Virus record (IMG/VR): IMGVR_UViG_3300009093_000084
Location: 1-37,236 of that record
Direction: 5' to 3' (one strand)
DNA from: a virus
DNA length: 37,236 nt
Shown here: positions 4,271 to 36,460 of the stretch, in pieces
How the letters are laid out: each line of letters begins with the position of its first letter
Position numbering within the stretch: position 1 is the stretch's first letter
Notes under the pieces: generated by a model
Told to the model about the DNA's origin: nothing
Seen by the model: the letters and a program-made list of their open reading frames with translations, nothing else
Database searches by the model: none
Program-made: the position numbers and the translations under genes

Positions 4271-6358
4271 ATGGGCAAGCTCTATTCGTTCGCCGACCAC
4301 CCGGAACACAAGGCACAGCTCGGCACGTGGGCGCAGCGCTGGATCGCCAACGCGCTGCGCACGACGGCGCAGACCGAGGACGAGCGCGAGAAGATGCGCG
4401 CGGCGATGCGCGGGCTCTATGAGGCCGCGAAGCTCGAGCTCGTGCCCGAGCACCGCGGCGTGTTCGTTGCGTCGCCGATGAGTGCGGCGATCGCCGCGAG
4501 CGTGGCCGCCGGCGTCTGGTGGCTTCGCGAGCATCGCGAGAAGCACGCCGCGCTCTTCGGTCGTGAGGTGGACGAGCCGGAGCTTATGGCGGCTGTCGGT
4601 CCGGCTGTCTCAAGGGCGATGGTCGTCGGTTGCGCGCACCTTCGTGGTGAGTCGTTGCCTGCGCTGCCCTCGATGTCGGGAGATCCTGCGGACGCGGCGA
4701 CGGACGCGGCGACGGACGCGGCGACGTACGCGGCGACGAGAGCGGCGACGGACGCGGCGACGGACGCGGCGACGTACGCGGCGACGAGAGCGGCGACGGA
4801 CGCGGCGACGGACGCGGCGACGGACGCGGCGACGGACGCGGCGACGGACGCGGCGACGTCAGCGGCGACGAGAGCGGCGACGTCCGCGGCGACGTACGCG
4901 GCGACGTACGCGGCGACGGACGCGGCGACGGACGCGGCGACGGACGCGGCGACGTCAGCGGCGACGTACGCGGCGACGGAAGCGGCGACGGAAGCGGCGA
5001 CGTCAGCGGCGACGGACGCGGCGACGGACGCGGCGACGGAAGCGGCGACGTCAGCGGCGACGGACGCGGCGACGGAAGCGGCGACGGAAGCGGCGACGAG
5101 AGCGGCGACGGAAGCGGCGACGAGCGCGGCGACGGAAGCGGCGACGAGAGCGGCGACGAAAGCGGCGACGGAAGCGGCGACGTACGCGGCGACGGACGCG
5201 GCGACGTACGCGGCGACGAGCGCGGCGACGTACGCGGCGACGAGCGCGGCGACGTACGCGGCGACGAGAGCGGCGACGTCCGCGGCGACGGAAGCGGCGA
5301 CGTACGCGGCGACGGACGCGGCGACGTCAGCGGCGACGGACGCGGCGACGAGAGCGGCGACGGACGCGGCGACGTCCGCGGCGACGTACGCGGCGACGTA
5401 CGCGGCGACGGGAGCGGCGACGTCAGCGGCGACGAGAGCGGCGACGGAAGCGGCGACGTCAGCGGCGACGTACGCGGCGACGTACGCGGCGACGGAAGCG
5501 GCGACGGAAGCGGCGACGTCAGCGGCGACGGAAGCGGCGACGAGCGCGGCGACGGAAGCGGCGACGGACGCGTCCGATCTGATCGGTAGCCGGCTCGTCG
5601 CGTTTCTGATCCGCTGCACGCAGTACAGCCACGGCATGCGCAACGCCGGCAACATGTGGAGCGGCTGGGTCGCGTACCTGTCGTTCTTCCGCCACGTCGC
5701 GAAGCTGCCGCTCGACGTCTACGAGAAGTTCGCGCACTACGAGGCCGCAACCGAGCTCGCTGGCCCGCGGTACATGCACGCAAAGTTCTGGATCGCCTCG
5801 GACTTCCCGGAGACCGTCGGTCGCGACGAGCAGAATCGGCCGCACTGCGCGACCGGCCCGCAGCTCCGATGGCGCGACGGGTGGGAGCTCTTCTTCTGGC
5901 ACGGCGTCCGCGTGCCCGCGCAGCTCATCGAAGCGCCCGAGACGATCACTGTCGCGCAGATCGACGCGGAGCCGAACGCCGAAATTAGGCGCGTCATGAT
6001 CGAACGCATGGGCCTTGGCCGCTACGCCAATGAATCCGGCGCGCGCGTCGTCCACGAAGACAAAGACTCGCTCGGCTTGCCGCGCCGTCTCCTCTGGCGC
6101 GACGTGCCCGACCACGATCCCATCGTCGTCTGCGAGGTCATCAACTCGACGCCCGAGCCCGGCGCCTACGAAGGCGGCTGGGTGAACCCGACGACGGGTC
6201 GCGTGCACAAGATCTACCACCTCACCGTGCACCACGAGGCGCGGCCGCTGCTCGACGCCGACGCGCTCGGCGACGCGCAGAAGCTCACGTGCCACAACGC
6301 CATCGCGTCGACCTTCGGCCTCCGTGGTGAGGACTACCAGCCGGCGGTGGAGACATGA
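4271..6358 (+). CDS. Large DUF6745-like protein interrupted by a 73-unit AATX repeat, 695 aa
   Basis: Residues 1-140 are helical. Residues 141-432 are 73 perfect tetrapeptides X-A-A-T. Residues 433-695 form a globular domain with NMWSGWVAYLSFFRHVAKL, then DEQNRPHCATGPQLRWRDG, FFWHGVRVPAQLIE and RRVMIERMG, and an ending GLRGEDYQPAVET. The C-terminal half fits, from memory, the DUF6745 family, whose members often carry a leader and an Ala-rich variable stretch; no biochemical function is known to me. X is Asp 20, Ser 15, Tyr 14, Glu 14, Arg 8, Lys 1, Gly 1, so the stretch is acidic and could form a long single helix with X spiralling round it. A GAGGA lies five bases before the ATG. The stop overlaps a 12-codon mini-frame that leads to the next gene. 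Confidence 0.7.
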   Translation: MGKLYSFADHPEHKAQLGTWAQRWIANALRTTAQTEDEREKMRAAMRGLYEAAKLELVPEHRGVFVASPMSAAIAASVAAGVWWLREHREKHAALFGREVDEPELMAAVGPAVSRAMVVGCAHLRGESLPALPSMSGDPADAATDAATDAATYAATRAATDAATDAATYAATRAATDAATDAATDAATDAATDAATSAATRAATSAATYAATYAATDAATDAATDAATSAATYAATEAATEAATSAATDAATDAATEAATSAATDAATEAATEAATRAATEAATSAATEAATRAATKAATEAATYAATDAATYAATSAATYAATSAATYAATRAATSAATEAATYAATDAATSAATDAATRAATDAATSAATYAATYAATGAATSAATRAATEAATSAATYAATYAATEAATEAATSAATEAATSAATEAATDASDLIGSRLVAFLIRCTQYSHGMRNAGNMWSGWVAYLSFFRHVAKLPLDVYEKFAHYEAATELAGPRYMHAKFWIASDFPETVGRDEQNRPHCATGPQLRWRDGWELFFWHGVRVPAQLIEAPETITVAQIDAEPNAEIRRVMIERMGLGRYANESGARVVHEDKDSLGLPRRLLWRDVPDHDPIVVCEVINSTPEPGAYEGGWVNPTTGRVHKIYHLTVHHEARPLLDADALGDAQKLTCHNAIASTFGLRGEDYQPAVET
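4691..5566 (+). repeat. 12-bp tandem array, 73 units, NNN-GCG-GCG-ACG
   Basis: I read every unit: 876 bp, exactly 73 copies, no gaps. The nine bases GCGGCGACG are identical in all copies, while the leading triplet is one of only nine (GAC, TAC, GAA, TCA, TCC, AGC, AGA, AAA, GGA). Its third base is always C or A, its second base is never T and its first base is never C. Ser is written by both TCN (8 TCA, 3 TCC) and AGC (4). The 5' part is Asp-rich, the 3' part Ser/Glu/Tyr-rich. Silent sites are frozen while the amino-acid-changing codon varies, the reverse of ordinary protein conservation. Unit-wise block duplication is the simplest source; DNA-level selection is the alternative. Confidence 0.95.
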
Positions 6359-8415: not shown

Positions 8416-8933
8416 GCGTTGCGGATCGCTTCGACCTCCGCGTAGCCGGCGACGATCGCTCGTGGGCGTGGTTCTCTCGCGACGGTGCATACCGCTACGC
8501 GCTCGGTCGCCAGTGGCATCCGACGTATTCGCCTCTTACGGTCTGCATGCTCAACCCGTCGACCGCCGACGAGCGCGTGGTCGATCCGACCGTGCGCAAG
8601 TTGCTCCACTTCGCGCAGCGCGACGGCCACGGCGGGCTGGTCGTCGTGAACCTCTTCGCGCTCCGCTCAGCCGACCCGTCGTACCTAGCCGATTGGATCG
8701 CGGAGGGCCGAGACCCGGTCGGACCGGCGAACGATGTCGCGATCGACAATCTGCTTTCGCGAGCTACGCCGGTCGCCGCGTGGGGCGCGTTCTCGCAGAA
8801 GTTCATCCGCGAGCGTGTCGCGACGGTGCGCGCGATGCGGCCGAGCTGGCAGTGCTTCGGCGCGACGAAGGACGGCCATCCGAAACACCCGTGCTACCTC
8901 GCGAACGCGACGCGCGCTGAGGCGTGGCGATGA
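8412..8933 (+). CDS. DUF1643 family protein, 173 aa
   Basis: Shows the DUF1643 signature in order: RYALGRQWH early, then CMLNPSTADERVVDPTVRK, VVVNLFALRSADPSYL, DPVGPANDVAID, VAAWGAF and a closing CFGATKDGHPKHPCYL. The family is common in phages and bacterial defence or mobile regions; I know of no firm biochemical role, though the conserved Asn/Asp/Trp-Gly/His pattern suggests an enzyme or nucleotide-binding fold. Length (173) is typical. Start and stop both overlap neighbours by four bases. Confidence 0.8.
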   Translation: MSVADRFDLRVAGDDRSWAWFSRDGAYRYALGRQWHPTYSPLTVCMLNPSTADERVVDPTVRKLLHFAQRDGHGGLVVVNLFALRSADPSYLADWIAEGRDPVGPANDVAIDNLLSRATPVAAWGAFSQKFIRERVATVRAMRPSWQCFGATKDGHPKHPCYLANATRAEAWR

Positions 8934-9280
8934 CCGCCGCCGCTCCGGCCCTCTTGCCCGACGTGCTGACCGCGCAGCACATCGCCGACCGCGAGCACAT
9001 CCCGCTGAGCACGGCCTACGAGCTGATGCACCGGATGATCCACTACTACGTCGGGCGCCAGCTCCGCGTCACTCGACATGCGTACGAGACTTGGCTACGA
9101 CGGCAGGAGTGCGCGCCCTTGCCGCCCCGAAGCTCTACCAGCGTGCGCCGGGCGGGTTCTGGCAGTGCTATTGGCGCGGCGAACGATGGAGCACCGGCGA
9201 AACGGACAAGGCGAAAGCCGCTGCGAAAGTCCGGCAGCACTACGATCCACGTCACACGACCGCGCGCGAAAAAACGATAG
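8930..9280 (+). CDS. Excisionase-like helix-turn-helix protein (Xis candidate)
   Basis: Residues ~13-58 match the MerR/excisionase-type winged helix: LTAQHIADREHIPLSTAYEL, a turn, then a wing (GRQLRVTRHAYETWL). Directional recombination for the neighbouring integrase is the likely role. ATG 8930 overlaps the DUF1643 stop. After residue ~60 the frame runs on through 172 bp of the integrase gene, adding a basic Ser/Arg/Lys-rich tail that ends KKR. The tail may be tolerated overlap, or may help DNA binding. A run of six A (9269-9274) lies just before the stop. Confidence 0.65.
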   Translation: MTAAAPALLPDVLTAQHIADREHIPLSTAYELMHRMIHYYVGRQLRVTRHAYETWLRRQECAPLPPRSSTSVRRAGSGSAIGAANDGAPAKRTRRKPLRKSGSTTIHVTRPRAKKR

Positions 9281-10179
9281 AAGACGCGATCGCGCTCGTG
9301 TACGAAGCTCTCGTGCGTCGTGGACGCACCGCCGCGACGAAGGAAAACGCCGCCGGCAAGCTCGGGCACTTCGCGCGCATCTGGGAGGGCCGCAGCCTCG
9401 CGACGATCGACTACCCCGCCGTCGCCGACTACGTGACGCAGCGGACGAGCGAGGGCGTCAAGCGGATCACAATCAGCCACGAGCTCGGCTACCTACGCCA
9501 AGCGTGGAAGCTCGCGCGCGCGAACGGATGGGTCACGAAGGCGTGGGATGAGCTGATGCCGGAAAGGTTCGATACGGGGCATCGGCCCCGCACGCGATGG
9601 CTCACGAAGCAAGAACTCTCCGCGGTGCTCGGATCGCTGCCGCCCGATCGCGCCGCGTGGGTCGCGTGGATCGTCGCGACGGGCTCCGACGTGTCCGATG
9701 TCGAGCGCGCGAAGGCCGGCGACGTCGACTGGAAGCGCGGCCTCGTGCGCGTGCGCGGCACGAAGACGGTCTTTCGTGACCGGCTCGTGCCCATCACGCC
9801 GCTGACGCGACCGCTGCTCAAGCTGGCGACCGAGCACGGCCCGCCGTTCGTCGACGTGTGGAATACGCCGACGAGCGCCAACATCGTGCTCCGTAAGCTC
9901 GCCGCTCGCATCGGCATCCCGCACTTCAGCCCGAAGGACCTCCGGCGTACGTGGGCGACGTGGCACCGGCACGCGGGCGTCGACCTCGACCTCCTCGGCC
10001 GCGGCCTCGGTCACGCGGACGGCTCGCCGCTGGCCGCGACGACGTACGGGGCCGGGGAGGACGACGAGCTGGCCCGGCTTGTGCGGATGCAGGTCCGACG
10101 GAGTGCGAATGGTGTGCGAATGGCGCGGAATCGGAGGGGGTCAACCGGAACAACTGGAATCGGGACCCGCAGAAAATAG
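9109..10179 (+). CDS. int: Tyrosine recombinase (phage integrase), atypical catalytic set
   Basis: About 356 aa from GTG 9109 (a TTG at 9091 is the alternative). There is an arm-binding-like N-terminus (LYQRAPGGFWQCYWRGERWS), a core-binding helical domain, and a catalytic domain. Expected residues: TG-S-D-V-S-D-V occupies the box I slot, so the first Arg is Asp194; the beta-strand Lys is in RGTKTV; box II reads PKDLRRT, with Lys276 where His is usual and Arg279 kept; LGH His302 and TTY Tyr313 are present. The missing first Arg may be a family trait or a sign of decay. The stop TAG sits against the tRNA-Arg sequence at 10180, the usual int-attP arrangement for integration into the 3' end of a tRNA gene. 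Confidence 0.85.
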   Translation: MRALAAPKLYQRAPGGFWQCYWRGERWSTGETDKAKAAAKVRQHYDPRHTTAREKTIEDAIALVYEALVRRGRTAATKENAAGKLGHFARIWEGRSLATIDYPAVADYVTQRTSEGVKRITISHELGYLRQAWKLARANGWVTKAWDELMPERFDTGHRPRTRWLTKQELSAVLGSLPPDRAAWVAWIVATGSDVSDVERAKAGDVDWKRGLVRVRGTKTVFRDRLVPITPLTRPLLKLATEHGPPFVDVWNTPTSANIVLRKLAARIGIPHFSPKDLRRTWATWHRHAGVDLDLLGRGLGHADGSPLAATTYGAGEDDELARLVRMQVRRSANGVRMARNRRGSTGTTGIGTRRK

Positions 10180-12593: not shown

Positions 12594-13823
12594 TCACGGT
12601 GCGAGAACGAAGATGTTCCCGGACGAGTCTTTGATCTTCAGCTTCCCATCGGCCGAATCGAGGTATTCGCGCATTGCACCGGACGCAGGTGCGGCGGGCG
12701 CACCGGCTTGCAGGAAATCAGCGTATCCCGCACCGATCCCGATGACGTTCGTTGCGGCGTCGCCGGCAAGAAGGAGAGTCGCGCCGGTTTTATTCGTGCC
12801 GACCGTGAGCGATGTAGCACTCGTTCCGCTGCGCATTGCTGGCGTGGTAGCGGTTTGCACATTGCCGCCCCAGTCGAACGACAACGGCGCCGAGACTGTA
12901 CCGTTTGCCCCGCCGAATGATGCCGCGCCTTGGATTGCCCCAAACCACCACGCGGCAGCGCCGACATTCCACGATGTCGTACTCATCGACATCTGCGCTG
13001 TCGTGCCGCCGACGAATAGATTGTATAACCACGCATTGATAACTCGGTCGTTGACCGTCTGCGTAGCGCTATCGATCCATGACGTACGCTGAGCGATCCC
13101 GGTGTTATCGTACCAAGTACCGAGGATCTGATTTGCCGGACTGCTGAATTGTACTGCCTTCAGATTCGCATCGGTCGCCAGCGTGAGCGTCGCGCCGGCC
13201 TTGTTCGTGCCGAGCGTCGCCGCACTAACGAGCGGACCCCACTGCAAGGTGGACGTCGTGAAGGGTCCAGTCACGACCGCCGCCGCAGTCGTGCCGCTCA
13301 GCTCTCCCGCGAGCGATTGCGAGGCCTGATTGCTCGTCGGGAGCGTCCCCGTCACGTAGCCCGAGCCGCCCGCGAGATTCAGCGCGCCGGGCATCCAAAC
13401 CGATCCGTTCCAGCCAATCGTGTTTCCGGTCGTCGGTGCCGAGCTCGAAACCGCTCGCCCTTGCAAGCCCGTCACCGTCAGCGCGCCCGGATCCGTCGCC
13501 GATGCGTCGACGTCGCCGTGCGGGTACGCCCACACCGTTGCTGCGCCGGCGTCGTTCGTCCAAAGCGCTTGACCTGCGAGGCCGGGCGAGACGCCAGCGG
13601 GCGCCCAGTAGTACGCGCCGCCGTCCCATTGGAGCGCGCCGACCGTCGGCGCGGGCACCGGATGGCCCTGCACGCCGACGACGGTTTGGGAGACATACGA
13701 GCCGTCGAGGTCGCCAGAGAATTGAATCGGCGTTGCCGCCCCCGACGCGTCGATCGCTTGCGTGAGCAACGCGCCGAGCGCCATCGTCGCAATGACGAGT
13801 GAAATCCAAACACGATGCCTCAT
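12594..13823 (-). CDS. Exported tail-fibre-like protein with repeated TNK(A/T)GATL motif, 409 aa
   Basis: ATG 13823 overlaps the previous stop (ATGA). The N-terminus RVWISLVIATMALGALLTQA is a signal peptide or membrane anchor. The rest is Gly/Ser/Thr-rich and likely beta-structured, with fibre-like segments (PGALTVTGLQGRAVS, GYVTGTLPTSNQASQSLAGE) and two copies of a motif: LGTNKAGATLTLATDA and VGTNKTGATLLLAGDA. It ends EYLDSADGKLKIKDSSGNIF, a closing pattern seen in phage fibre and host surface proteins. Either a receptor-binding fibre with an odd leader, or a protein displayed by the host. It is one of two neighbouring genes with signal peptides. Confidence 0.55.
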   Translation of the reverse strand: MRHRVWISLVIATMALGALLTQAIDASGAATPIQFSGDLDGSYVSQTVVGVQGHPVPAPTVGALQWDGGAYYWAPAGVSPGLAGQALWTNDAGAATVWAYPHGDVDASATDPGALTVTGLQGRAVSSSAPTTGNTIGWNGSVWMPGALNLAGGSGYVTGTLPTSNQASQSLAGELSGTTAAAVVTGPFTTSTLQWGPLVSAATLGTNKAGATLTLATDANLKAVQFSSPANQILGTWYDNTGIAQRTSWIDSATQTVNDRVINAWLYNLFVGGTTAQMSMSTTSWNVGAAAWWFGAIQGAASFGGANGTVSAPLSFDWGGNVQTATTPAMRSGTSATSLTVGTNKTGATLLLAGDAATNVIGIGAGYADFLQAGAPAAPASGAMREYLDSADGKLKIKDSSGNIFVLAP

Positions 13824-31592: not shown

Positions 31593-33011
31593 TCACCCAA
31601 TCCAATCGTCGACGCCACCCAGCCCGAATCCTCCGAGCGATTCGTCCACGTCGCGCGAGTTGTGCCGCTTCGGGTCATGGTGCGCCTTGTTCTTCTCGTA
31701 TCTATCACGAATTTCGTCGTCGACCGCTTTCCGTTCGGAGCTCCGGGTTTCGACCTTTCGTTTCTGGAGGTTCAGCAGGCTCGCGCGCCAGACGTAAAGC
31801 AGCGCATCGCAGAGGTGGTTGTCCATCCCCTCGACCTCTTTGGTGCGCTTCTCGTTCCACGCGAGTGAGCCGAGCTCGCGCAATAAATCCTCGTTCGTCT
31901 CTTTGACGATCTTCACCTCGCCACGCGAAAGCGCTCCGTTCATGAGGTCGATGAAGCCCTGCTTGTTGACCTTCTCGGCTTGCTCGACAGGTACGGCGTG
32001 CTTTTGCCGCATCGTCTCCGCGTAGCCTTTGCCGAGCCCCGCCGTGTCACCGACGATGCGATTGAACCGAAACGGAAGCCCCTTCACGTACTCCGCCGCG
32101 TCGTCGGGGAGCATGCGCTTTTTCTTGAACGACTGGAGCACGTACAAAACCGGGTCGTGCATGCGCCAGCCCACAGAGACAAACGCGCATGCATCGTGAA
32201 AGCCGAAGTCGATCCCGAGCGCCCATCGCGCGACGTCGACCGGCGGCCTTGGGATGACGTTCCCGGCGACGGTGAACGTGTGATAGACGAGCCCACTCGC
32301 GTCTTGAATCCACTCGCCCAGCTCGAGCTGACGGCGCGTGACCGGATCGAGCTTCGCGAGCTGTCGGCGGTAGCTGTCTGCGTCGGCGCTCGGGTTGTCC
32401 TCGAGGCGTGCGGGGACGAACCTGCACGCGCCGTCGATGAAGCGCTCCTTGACCCATTCGTGCCCGAGGCCGCCGGGGTTGCTGGCGGCGCGCATGCGGA
32501 GCGGCACGTCCATGCCGGACGTCTTGCGCAAGCGCGAAAACAAGTAGCGATAGCTCGCCTCCGGAAATTGCGTGAGCTCGTCGAAGCCGATGAACTGAAA
32601 CGCTGCCGACTGGTAACGGTACTTGTCTTTCGGCGTGTCCAGGTAGCCGAACGAAAGGCGCGCGCCGCTCGGGAACGTCCACTGCTTGTTGATCCCGCTC
32701 CAGTGCGCGCGCGTACCGCGGAGCCACTCGTGCGAGCGGTCCATGATGGCCTCGGGGAGCGCGAGGTCTGCGAACGTGCGCCGGAAGAGGATCGCGTTGT
32801 AGCCGGGGATGTGCGCATACTCGAGCGCCGCCATGAGCAGCGCGTCACTCTTGCCGCCCGCTGCGGCGCCGCCGTAGAGCGCCTCTTCGTCGTCGAGCGC
32901 AAGGAACTCCGCTTGCTTGGGGTGAGGAGCGTGCGGACACCACGGCGATCGCCCTGTCGTGCGGCGCTCGACTTCGCGCAGTAGCCGATCAGCGCTCGCG
33001 AGCGGGTGCAT
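31593..33011 (-). CDS. terL: Terminase large subunit, 472 aa
   Basis: The packaging motor ATPase and nuclease. Walker A GGAAAGGKS at residues 47-55, Walker B FIGFDE ending in Asp144/Glu145, and the nuclease domain acidic residues in GIDFGFHD (Asp268), VGDTAG (Asp322) and MDNHLCDAL (Asp397, Asp402). The length is typical. The start ATG 33011 lies within the end of the upstream 177-aa gene and has AGG five bases before it. No classical small terminase sits next to it; candidates are the AT-hook and helical genes further upstream. The packaging type (headful or cohesive) cannot be read from the sequence alone, although the circular permutation favours headful. Confidence 0.92.
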   Translation of the reverse strand: MHPLASADRLLREVERRTTGRSPWCPHAPHPKQAEFLALDDEEALYGGAAAGGKSDALLMAALEYAHIPGYNAILFRRTFADLALPEAIMDRSHEWLRGTRAHWSGINKQWTFPSGARLSFGYLDTPKDKYRYQSAAFQFIGFDELTQFPEASYRYLFSRLRKTSGMDVPLRMRAASNPGGLGHEWVKERFIDGACRFVPARLEDNPSADADSYRRQLAKLDPVTRRQLELGEWIQDASGLVYHTFTVAGNVIPRPPVDVARWALGIDFGFHDACAFVSVGWRMHDPVLYVLQSFKKKRMLPDDAAEYVKGLPFRFNRIVGDTAGLGKGYAETMRQKHAVPVEQAEKVNKQGFIDLMNGALSRGEVKIVKETNEDLLRELGSLAWNEKRTKEVEGMDNHLCDALLYVWRASLLNLQKRKVETRSSERKAVDDEIRDRYEKNKAHHDPKRHNSRDVDESLGGFGLGGVDDWIG

Positions 33012-33522: not shown

Positions 33523-33827
33523 GACGTAGCCTTCGGCTCTAGTGCCTGCGCGATGCTCTTCGGCGGGCGTCCGGGGCCTCGACGCGCACCATCAGTCTCC
33601 GCAGGAGTCATCCACGCGGCGCGACTGACGTGGATGGCGCGGCGAGCGCCGGAGCTGTTGGTCACGGCGACGAGCCCGCTTGCCGGATCGTAGTCGATGC
33701 TGTCGCCGTCTTTCTCGCGAAAGAGCGTGCGTGGGCGACTGGCCAGCATGCGCTGCTCGAGATCTGCCGTCTCCGGTACGCTCAGCCTCACGCCCTTGCC
33801 GTCAAATTCAATCTCCATGATTCGCAT
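33519..33827 (-). CDS. Protein with C-terminal AT-hook-like motif, 102 aa
   Basis: I chose ATG 33827 (an alternative ATG is 33818); the ribosome site is weak. A small N-terminal domain (EIEFDGKGVRLSVPETADLE) is followed by SRAAWMTPAETDGARRGPGRPPKSI, whose GPGRPPK resembles an AT-hook that would insert into the minor groove. As a DNA-binding protein close to terL it is one candidate for a small terminase or packaging-site factor. It overlaps the upstream gene by about 20 bp and the downstream gene by four. Confidence 0.5.
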   Translation of the reverse strand: MRIMEIEFDGKGVRLSVPETADLEQRMLASRPRTLFREKDGDSIDYDPASGLVAVTNSSGARRAIHVSRAAWMTPAETDGARRGPGRPPKSIAQALEPKATS

Positions 33828-34119
33828 TCGTCGTCGACCTTTCGAAAAGCTGTCTGCAGATACCCATCCCGCGCGCCGCGCGCCGCACGTACGCCATGAG
33901 CACGCGGCCTCCACGTTCGACGCAGACGAATCCGAGGATGGCATCTGCGTCGTCAGGCACCACCGCGACGCGCGCGCCGTGCGCGCTCAATTGCTCGCGC
34001 GCGAGGGCGCGAATGTGAGCGTTGCTCGCGCGCGAGTGTCGCCGCTCAGTCTGCACCCAGCACTCGAGCACATAAGGCACGTCGTTTTCGTGGAGCGGTC
34101 TCACCGCGCACGCCATCAT
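33808..34119 (-). CDS. GNAT-like acetyltransferase, 103 aa
   Basis: Shows the shortened GNAT pattern of phage proteins: VRPLHENDVPYVLECWVQ at the start, GARVAVVPDDADAILGFVCV, then LMAYVRRAARGMGICRQLF, where R-x-A-R-G-M-G-I is the acetyl-CoA pyrophosphate loop. Family members near terminase genes are common in podoviruses; substrates are unknown. At 103 residues it is short and lacks a full C-terminal strand, so it may act as a binding protein rather than an enzyme. The ATGATG start overlaps the previous stop. Confidence 0.6.
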   Translation of the reverse strand: MMACAVRPLHENDVPYVLECWVQTERRHSRASNAHIRALAREQLSAHGARVAVVPDDADAILGFVCVERGGRVLMAYVRRAARGMGICRQLFERSTTNANHGD

Positions 34120-34400
34120 TTGACCGCTTTGAGCTTCGTGATCGTCTCGTCCACGCGTTTTTTTAGCTCTTCAGCCGACAGCTGATCCAACGCATCGGCA
34201 TCGGGGTCTCCGGCTTTTTTGCGCATGAGCTTGAGGTGCTCGATGGCTGTGCGCATGTGGTGTGTCTGGCTGATGGCGTTGGCGAGTTTGGCCACGTCGC
34301 TCTTATCATCGGTGGTGTGCATCTGCTCCGTGAGGAACTCCGCCTGCGCCTCGAGCTCCGCGATCCGCTCGTTGTCCGTTTTTCCATCGCGCGCGCGCAT
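34116..34400 (-). CDS. Helical protein, first gene of the packaging block, 94 aa
   Basis: I chose ATG 34400; the frame is open to a TTG at 34415, and no good ribosome site is seen for either. The product is a charged coiled coil (NERIAELEAQAEFLTEQMHT; SQTHHMRTAIEHLKLMRKK) with a C-terminal helix (DQLSAEELKKRVDETITKL). Its size, helical nature and position at the head of the packaging block make it the best small-terminase candidate, but there is no motif to prove it. It lies just beyond the repeat region 34524-34661. Confidence 0.5.
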   Translation of the reverse strand: MRARDGKTDNERIAELEAQAEFLTEQMHTTDDKSDVAKLANAISQTHHMRTAIEHLKLMRKKAGDPDADALDQLSAEELKKRVDETITKLKAVK

Positions 34401-34523
34401 GGGATTATATTCCAACGGATTGGCAAAAACGTCAATGCGTTGGCACAGAGCAAACGACGTGAGTGAGTCTCATTGCCTCGGCCCCCGGTCGGCTCCTGGG
34501 CCATTGAAGGGCAACGAATTGGC

Positions 34524-34661
34524 GGACACTGGACATGCAATCTGTCCTGAGTGTCCGGAGCGTCCGCAGTGGGTATAAATACCCACTGCGCGGACACTCC
34601 TTTCGGACACTCTCTGAGTGTCCACCGCGGACACTCGCGGACACTGCGGACACTGGACACT
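34524..34661. repeat. Iteron cluster: nine copies of GGACACT in both orientations
   Basis: Direct copies begin at 34524, 34592, 34605, 34629, 34639, 34648 and 34655; inverted copies (AGTGTCC) are at 34550 and 34617. Most are preceded by C (CGGACACT). The last four are tandem with spacings of 10, 9 and 7 bp. GGACACTC-TCT-GAGTGTCC (34605-34623) is a perfect 8-bp hairpin, and the first pair encloses a second nested one (GGACA...TGTCC). Two more CGGACACT copies lie inside the adjacent primase/helicase gene (35367, 35518). Spaced iterons beside a replication gene are typical of origin binding sites. Confidence 0.9.
34565..34590. promoter_or_regulatory. 26-bp perfect palindrome with TATAAATA centre inside the iteron cluster
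   Basis: Two 12-base arms (CGCAGTGGGTAT / ATACCCACTGCG) around a central AA, with the AT-rich core in an otherwise GC-rich region. It is flanked on each side by half-repeats that read GTCCG and CGGAC, so the whole block is almost symmetric. It could be a cruciform or melting element of an origin, a dimer binding site, or a hairpin in the RNA that crosses it. No T-run follows on either strand. Confidence 0.85.
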
Positions 34662-34675
34662 CAGAGCCATTTTCT

Positions 34676-36460
34676 TTACACCGCAAACCATAATTTTCCG
34701 TTCCGAGGTCCGGGCACCGATTTCACCGCATTGAGGTTTTCGAGCTCGGCCAAGTCGTCAGCGACAGAAGATTTGGAGCGGCCCAAAAGCTTCGCGAGCG
34801 TGCGACCGGATTGGCCGCGATTGTCGCGTACACAGAGAAGCAGATTGGCGCGCTCAGCTTGCATGCGTTCTCGGCGGTTATCCTCTTCCGCTTTGCCAAG
34901 CGGCTTCATCTTGAACTCGAGCGCGCCGGAGAGGCTCCAGACGCCAGCAAGCTGAAATGATTCCTCACGCGAGCCAGGAAAGCGGCTCCGGATGTGTGTC
35001 CAGATGCTTGGCGCGTCGACCTTGTTCTGATCACGCTTCACACCCCACGCGTCTTGGCACATGCCGAGAATCGCGTAATTGCCTGCGACACGTTCGATGT
35101 CCGATTTCTTGCCGCCCGATGCGCCCGCTGAAGCGCCTTTGTTGTAGTGGTGCGTCATCGCGATTGTGCAGCCGGTTTTTTCTGAGACGCGCCAAAATGC
35201 CTCAAGCGGGCGTGCGGCCTCCGGTGCGTTCTCGTTATCGACTCGGCAACAGCGACGGAACGAATCGATGAGTGCGAACGCGTAGCCGTCGAGCGCGCGG
35301 CACCACATGTCGACGTCTTTCAAGTCCGACATGAAGATGGTCGGCATGACCTCGACGCGTAGATCTCGGACACTCAGGCTGCGCCAGTCGAGCCCAAGAC
35401 CCCGCGCAATCTCGTTGTAACGCGCGTGCGTGAGCCTTTTTCCCTGCTCATAATCGAAATGAATCGCGCGGCCTCGCGCCGCTTCCCACTGTCCAAATAC
35501 CTTGTGCCCGGTGGGGACGGACACTGCGATCCCCTGCGCGCCGTAGGTCTTGCCGCTGCCAGGCTCGCCAGCGATAAGGGTCACCGGTCCGGGCGCGAGC
35601 CGCATCGGCTGGAGAAGCCACGGCACCGGCCCAAGGTCTTGCGCGAGCGTCGTCGGGTCGAGCGTCTCGATCGCGTACGACGGCACAGCCTCTGCCGCGT
35701 TTTTCCACGCCTCGAGAAACGTCCCTGCCGTTGCGCCGGCGGCGATGGCGTCGCTTGCATCCTTTTGCGGCAAACGCACGATGCGCGTCGATGACGCAAC
35801 GCCCTCGAGCTCCGCGCGCCAGCTCTCCGCGTAGACCGTACCCTCAGCGTCAGCGTCTGCGATGATGCACACGTCACGGCCGCGCAGGAGGTCCTTGCCA
35901 GCGTCGGCGCTTAGTTTGACACCACGGGCGCCCCCCGAGCTCGTCGTTGCTTGGAGGCCCAATTGTGCGAGCGCGTCAGCGTCCTTTTCTCCCTCCACGA
36001 GAAAGATGACGCCCTCGGAAGTTCGCACCTGCTGTGCGCGGTACATCTGCCGAGCGACGCCTGCGATACTCCACACCCAGGACCCAGGCGAGCCGTTGGG
36101 ACGACGCTGCCGGAAGCTCTTCGGCTCGAGCCGTACGACTTGATACGCTAGCGCGCCGGACGCATCGAAGTAGTCGTAGGTGGCGACCTCCCGCGACGGC
36201 AAGCTAGGCGCGACGTTCGGAGCCAGACCATTCATCGTGAATGACTCTTCATTGATGAGCGGCTCATCGCGTAGGAGGTGGGCGTAGAGCGGCCCGGCTT
36301 CTGAGTGTGATTCATGGTGCGAGCCTTCGGAGATGCGCGCGCAGAACGCCCATTTGCCATCATCGGACATGTATCCGTGACAGCGCTTTTCCTTTCCGCG
36401 CGGCATAGAGCCGTAGCCTTCGCAAATGGGACAAGGATCGGCGCGCGTAAATCGACGCAT
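34676..36460 (-). CDS. TOPRIM primase fused to RepA-type helicase, 594 aa
   Basis: Domains in order: an N-terminal zinc set (Cys10, Cys13, Cys27, Cys40), a TOPRIM domain with FLVEGEKDAD (Glu156) and IIADADAEG (Asp202-Asp204), and a hexameric RecA/RepA-like ATPase with Walker A GEPGSGKT (298-305) and Walker B ALIDSF (Asp399). It ends with a winged-helix-like segment (GRTLAKLLGRSKSSVADDLA). Such fusions prime and unwind phage DNA, and the final domain may bind the origin. The iteron cluster starts 15 bp beyond the stop and two iterons lie inside the gene, which supports an origin link. ATG 36460 has only a weak ribosome site. Confidence 0.85.
   Translation of the reverse strand: MRRFTRADPCPICEGYGSMPRGKEKRCHGYMSDDGKWAFCARISEGSHHESHSEAGPLYAHLLRDEPLINEESFTMNGLAPNVAPSLPSREVATYDYFDASGALAYQVVRLEPKSFRQRRPNGSPGSWVWSIAGVARQMYRAQQVRTSEGVIFLVEGEKDADALAQLGLQATTSSGGARGVKLSADAGKDLLRGRDVCIIADADAEGTVYAESWRAELEGVASSTRIVRLPQKDASDAIAAGATAGTFLEAWKNAAEAVPSYAIETLDPTTLAQDLGPVPWLLQPMRLAPGPVTLIAGEPGSGKTYGAQGIAVSVPTGHKVFGQWEAARGRAIHFDYEQGKRLTHARYNEIARGLGLDWRSLSVRDLRVEVMPTIFMSDLKDVDMWCRALDGYAFALIDSFRRCCRVDNENAPEAARPLEAFWRVSEKTGCTIAMTHHYNKGASAGASGGKKSDIERVAGNYAILGMCQDAWGVKRDQNKVDAPSIWTHIRSRFPGSREESFQLAGVWSLSGALEFKMKPLGKAEEDNRRERMQAERANLLLCVRDNRGQSGRTLAKLLGRSKSSVADDLAELENLNAVKSVPGPRNGKLWFAV

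Follow-up and report, generated by a model that had tools for sequence, protein, structure and literature searches.

Nine GGACACT repeats directly 3' of a primase-helicase gene: a probable replication origin in a circular phage genome

The cluster of nine GGACACT repeats beside the DNA-copying gene of this phage is almost certainly a real signal, and it is most likely the place where copying of the phage DNA starts. According to the reading that we prefer, to which we give a probability of about 0.8, the intergenic gap at 34416-34675 is the replication origin and the GGACACT copies are iterons, which would be bound by the C-terminal winged helix of the adjacent primase-helicase, its helicase rings opening the DNA and its Toprim part providing the priming. 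The window, i.e. the whole stretch of 37,236 nt that was analysed, is a circular record (123-bp end repeat, circle of 37,113 bp) whose genes include those for the terminase and the head. No DNA-level relative was found in the phage collection searched, and no close primase in the viral contigs searched. The features on which the argument draws are the following:

865-1425: HTH_3 protein (profile match)
8734-10179: tyrosine integrase (phrog_1, E=2.2e-35)
31593..33011, minus strand: terminase large subunit, used as a synteny marker (77% identical in the relative L004)
33808..34119, minus strand: GNAT-like gene, used as a synteny marker (82% identical in L004)
34116..34415, minus strand: small gene of 99 aa, the first of the run towards the terminase (alternative ATG at 34400)
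34416..34675, unstranded: intergenic gap of 260 bp, proposed origin region (58% GC versus 65% for the genome)
34524..34661, unstranded: iteron array with nine GGACACT, at 34524+, 34550-, 34592+, 34605+, 34617-, 34629+, 34639+, 34648+ and 34655+
34531+ and 34543-: GGACA half-like copies within the array
34524-34556: nested hairpin, GGACACT..GGACA..TGTCC..AGTGTCC
34565..34590, unstranded: inverted repeat of 26 bp with 12-bp arms within the array, CGCAGTGGGTAT-AA-ATACCCACTGCG, a candidate melting or cruciform element
34605..34623, unstranded: hairpin with an 8-bp stem, GGACACTC-TCT-GAGTGTCC, made of two opposed iterons
34676..36460, minus strand: primase-helicase of 594 aa, the proposed initiator, with Toprim_2 (residues 153-238), AAA_25/RepA-like (272-443) and C-terminal winged-helix (531-586) domains
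34703..34870, minus strand: winged-helix domain, proposed to bind the iterons (PF25212, E=5e-6, 26.7 bits, just below the cut-off of 27.6; HTH_11, E=7e-4)

Both genes that flank the gap are on the minus strand, and the array is therefore 3' of the primase-helicase and 5' of the run from the small gene to the terminase, its nearest iteron being located 15 bp past the primase-helicase stop codon. An earlier note on this DNA had described nine GGACACT in both orientations within 138 bp, which the count and the simulated genomes confirm. Seven copies are forward and two reverse, with mixed orientations and an irregular spacing (26, 42, 13, 12, 12, 10, 9 and 7). Over the whole window the word occurs 11 times against 2.8 expected, a total reached by none of 100 shuffles, and in 100 Markov-1 genomes with the same dinucleotides the maximum for any 7-mer in 138 bp was 5 copies. 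Nor is GGACACT scattered elsewhere at the same density: the only two copies outside the array, at 35368 and 35519, both lie within the primase-helicase gene, as the note had reported, and are close to chance level (genome-wide expectation of 2.8). The non-coding DNA of the window has no other dense cluster of a word; one at 4.7-5.5 kb is denser, but is made of a 12-bp repeat within a coding ORF. This ORF of 695 aa (4271-6358, plus strand) carries very GC-rich 12-bp tandem repeats, GCGGCGAC, with approximately 21 copies per 250 bp and 76% GC.

Base composition is among the points against an origin at this place. The AT-richness of the gap is moderate, a 260-bp window near position 800 being more AT-rich, and the cumulative GC skew of the 37113-bp circle, proposed as a check, gave no support for an origin at the array: its extremes are located elsewhere (minimum at about 430, maximum at 12857 or 29526), although the signal has little amplitude and gene strand confounds it. 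The palindrome described as perfect proved to be a genuine 26-bp inverted repeat, but not a strictly perfect one, because its central AA is not self-complementary. The hairpin with the 8-bp stem and the nested one were both recovered as announced, and the array region, taken as single-stranded DNA, folds with a z of -7.75 relative to shuffles.

The main evidence for the origin is the position of the array, directly 3' of a gene whose product is predicted to combine a Toprim domain, a RepA-like (AAA_25) core and a winged helix. This protein matches phrog_239 (E=3.8e-30); its Toprim domain was detected with PF13155 (27.1 bits, for a cut-off of 22.1) and its helicase core with AAA_25 (E=1.2e-23). 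Its sole PDB relative by sequence is RSF1010 RepA (1g8y; phmmer E=5.5e-7, residues 280-451), and no match to D5, DUF5906 or Pox_D5, i.e. to an SF3-type helicase, was found in it. For the C-terminal tail, a single-sequence model gives the order H-H-H-E-E with low confidence (pLDDT 56), and no PDB relative was retrieved by sequence.

The sequences themselves show the array with its inverted repeat, the domains of the protein, the conserved position past the 3' end of primase-helicase genes and the joint replacement of word and helicase in a syntenic relative; iteron binding, duplex opening, ring loading and priming are what we infer. The C-terminal winged helix of the primase-helicase (34676-36460) would bind the GGACACT iterons, and several bound copies, in both orientations, could bring together a pair of helicase rings that face each other around the TATAAATA-centred inverted repeat. 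Opening of the duplex, or of a cruciform, at this AT-centred inverted repeat would follow, and both strands would be primed by the protein's own Toprim part.

Such a mechanism would belong to a kind already known, namely the iteron origin beside an initiator helicase, and repeated short sites do lie here in non-coding DNA next to the proposed initiator gene. In general type the array most likely resembles the origins of phage P4 and of the staphylococcal islands, but with a different helicase type; the variant appears to be a RecA-fold RepA-like helicase fused to Toprim and a winged helix, together with the exchange of helicase and word as a unit, and our literature search found no described example of this arrangement with a RecA-fold helicase. 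The alpha protein of P4 has an SF3 helicase, whereas the core of the present protein is AAA_25/RepA-like with no SF3 (D5-like) domain. In P4 alpha a Toprim primase and a helicase are joined to a C-terminal winged helix, through which the origin repeats are bound (PMC4234260); the present protein also joins Toprim primase and helicase, with a winged helix predicted at its C-terminus. P4 also differs by its crr, since a search of the 37,236-nt stretch for a crr-like second array found none. The same paper compares P4 alpha with the plasmid pRN1, whose essential origin, with a large stem-loop, lies just 3' of the gene for its primase-helicase ORF904, itself ending in a C-terminal winged helix (PMC4234260). 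The candidate origin described here likewise lies just downstream of a primase-helicase with a predicted C-terminal winged helix, but iterons are absent from pRN1, which relies on an archaeo-eukaryotic primase and an SF3 helicase.

Closer in layout are SaPI Rep and SCCmec Cch2, which recognise, through their C-terminal domain, iterons directly downstream of their own gene (PMC7581432); the Cch2 iteron, AAGTG, has 5 nt and occurs in three copies in a 23-bp direct-repeat region (PMC7581432). This phage shares with these systems the placement of short repeats immediately past the end of the helicase gene. The differences lie in the word, in the separate primase that many of them have, and in the helicase, theirs being of the DUF927 or D5 type, neither of which is present in the primase-helicase of this phage. 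On sequence alone, the hexameric RepA-type core is closest to RepA of RSF1010, a plasmid whose oriV also combines iterons and palindromes. However, iteron binding and priming are on separate proteins in RSF1010 and apparently fused with the helicase here, and its iterons are long (20 bp) compared with a 7-bp word at irregular spacing; no RepC-like protein was named among the proteins scanned, which represent part of the genes.

In scans of IMG/VR for GGACACT, many of the matches listed were arrays in non-coding DNA with copies in both orientations, from phages whose GC content ranges over 30-75%. In the cases examined, replicative primase-helicases account for at least 20 of the 28 genes whose 3' end faces such an array, a tally that includes near-identical copies and corresponds to approximately 15 distinct ones, besides this phage and one bacterial-genome locus. 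The families found at these array-facing 3' ends are AAA_25 (8), DUF5906 (6), DUF3987 (5), Prim-Pol (3) and VapE (2); the tally concerns 3' ends, and the one protein examined whose 5' end faces an array had no family match. Arrays of the reversed control word TCACAGG that adjoin gene 3' ends also had helicases as neighbours in five cases out of six (D5, VapE, VapE, Toprim+D5 and AAA_25+HTH_11). As the control word finds helicase-side arrays too, GGACACT is not special and TCACAGG is no true null. Mixed arrays of at least four copies numbered 29 for GGACACT versus 2 for TCACAGG, among 120 loci each and among the matches listed; tandem-copy counts for the two words, again among the matches listed, are not comparable. 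A shared ‘GGACA code’ was considered and rejected, TCACAGG arrays also adjoining D5, VapE and AAA_25 helicases. What is conserved is the place 3' of primase-helicases of unrelated folds, not the word. A literature search for GGACACT together with repeats and a replication origin found nothing.

The same place was examined without reference to the motif. Homologues of the primase-helicase were fetched by protein alone from 379 Myxococcota genomes, and among the 22 with a full 3' flank, eight displayed, in the 260 bp past the 3' end of the gene, a short-word array or an inverted repeat that reached significance, versus 1 of 25 on the 5' side (one-sided hypergeometric of about 0.006, calculated by hand). 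Of these eight, six scored with a repeated word and four with an inverted repeat; that the other 14, the majority, have no significant array there counts against the origin reading. In the nearest homologue (L561, 30% identity over 502 aa), tandem CAATACCCT runs from the stop codon on; other 3' words are GGGTTCA (nine copies), GGGCGA (seven) and CGAACC (seven). The words thus differ among homologues, as expected if each fits its own binding domain.

The syntenic relative L004 keeps the terminase (77%), the GNAT-like gene (82%) and a gene of 177 aa (69%). In the primase-helicase position, however, it has an unrelated protein of VapE type (PF05272, E=2.5e-39), and in the corresponding gap AGGTGG occurs six times (p 0.004), three of the copies being at 9-bp spacing. 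Helicase and iteron word have thus been replaced together. Tentatively, a winged-helix tail and a 3' iteron array might even travel as one interchangeable origin unit among unrelated helicases (RecA-fold RepA-like, SF3 D5/VapE, Prim-Pol/DUF3987), phages replacing the helicase and its word jointly at a single syntenic position and short words such as GGACA recurring independently in different phyla. If general, the rule would be that a mixed-orientation array of a short word directly 3' of a primase-helicase marks an origin, irrespective of which word it is and of how the helicase folds; the present phage is a clear case with a RecA-fold helicase. Origins could then be predicted from the sequence of phages at large, most uncultured phages being without a known origin, and the rule would also provide matched pairs of helicase tail and iteron word for studying how recognition changes.

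These comparisons make the iteron origin, with the winged-helix end of the primase-helicase as candidate binder, the better supported of the two functions that the earlier note had proposed, the other being a late switch. Under the latter, the repeats would be operators, and a regulator encoded by the phage, such as the HTH_3 protein, would use them to control the late operon that begins at 34415 on the minus strand. The gap does lie upstream of the minus-strand run to the terminase, the genome does encode an HTH_3 protein and TATAAT stands 3 bases before the ATG at 34400, yet we consider such a switch unlikely: a search of the gap revealed neither a sigma-70-type promoter nor a T-tailed terminator (the inverted repeat at 34565-34590 has no T-tail and is therefore no intrinsic terminator by consensus), operators of the Cro/CI type do not usually comprise nine sites in both orientations, and what arrays constantly adjoin across phages is the 3' end of a helicase gene, not a late operon. 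This TATAAT (34400-34409, minus strand), before the first gene of the late run, could be a leaderless promoter, without a -35 match. Regulation could also be added to the origin rather than replace it, the iteron-bound helicase repressing transcription through the gap and the array serving autoregulation or incompatibility control as in iteron plasmids. Such dual use extends the origin reading and is compatible with it; given that the array is also in the leader of the late run and that iteron handcuffing is known in plasmids, we regard it as a possible, if rather doubtful, addition.

A partition (parS-like) or packaging (pac) site is far less probable. Repeat arrays are common at parS and the gap lies within 1.7 kb of the terminase gene; however, the tyrosine integrase leads one to expect an integrated prophage, ParA and ParB were not found among the proteins scanned (part of the genes), and neither function predicts an association with primase-helicases across phages. 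Finally, although tandem repeats arise readily, a chance or low-complexity expansion devoid of function is scarcely credible in view of the mixed orientations and irregular spacing, of nine copies where no simulated genome exceeded 5, and of the occupation of the same place in unrelated phages.

Hairpins like those of this phage occur in a minority of such arrays, which counts against the iteron origin that we favour: a significant inverted repeat outside the iterons was detected in 4 of 27 arrays (p≤0.05), and the hairpin as an obligatory part of such arrays was rejected on this count. A strict C-run/TA/G-run palindrome pattern, picked post hoc from examples, was found in 5 of 24 3' flanks of AAA_25 loci versus 0.18 expected, with 0 matches in 78.5 kb of gene and upstream DNA. 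Palindromes of the type CCCCCTCTATAGGGGG lie in or beside arrays 3' of AAA_25 helicase genes in L563, L573, L580, L583, L586, L324 and L235.

Two further groups of arrays were observed in the course of the scans. A five- to eight-copy mixed GGACACT array is present in L501, L503, L506, L508, L512, L518, L521 and L524, mostly prophages of bacterial isolates, in which the gene calls show no recognised helicase with its 3' end beside it. Arrays of GGACACTT are located 3' of a D5/DUF5906 helicase in L225, L177, L221, L258, L522, L525, L526, L531 and Lacticaseibacillus phage R23.1 (OP869847), in which this helicase is annotated as a hypothetical protein and which is 96.8% identical to L225; these elements are mostly of 12-14 kb and probably satellites, and in most of them the array lies 89 bp past the helicase.
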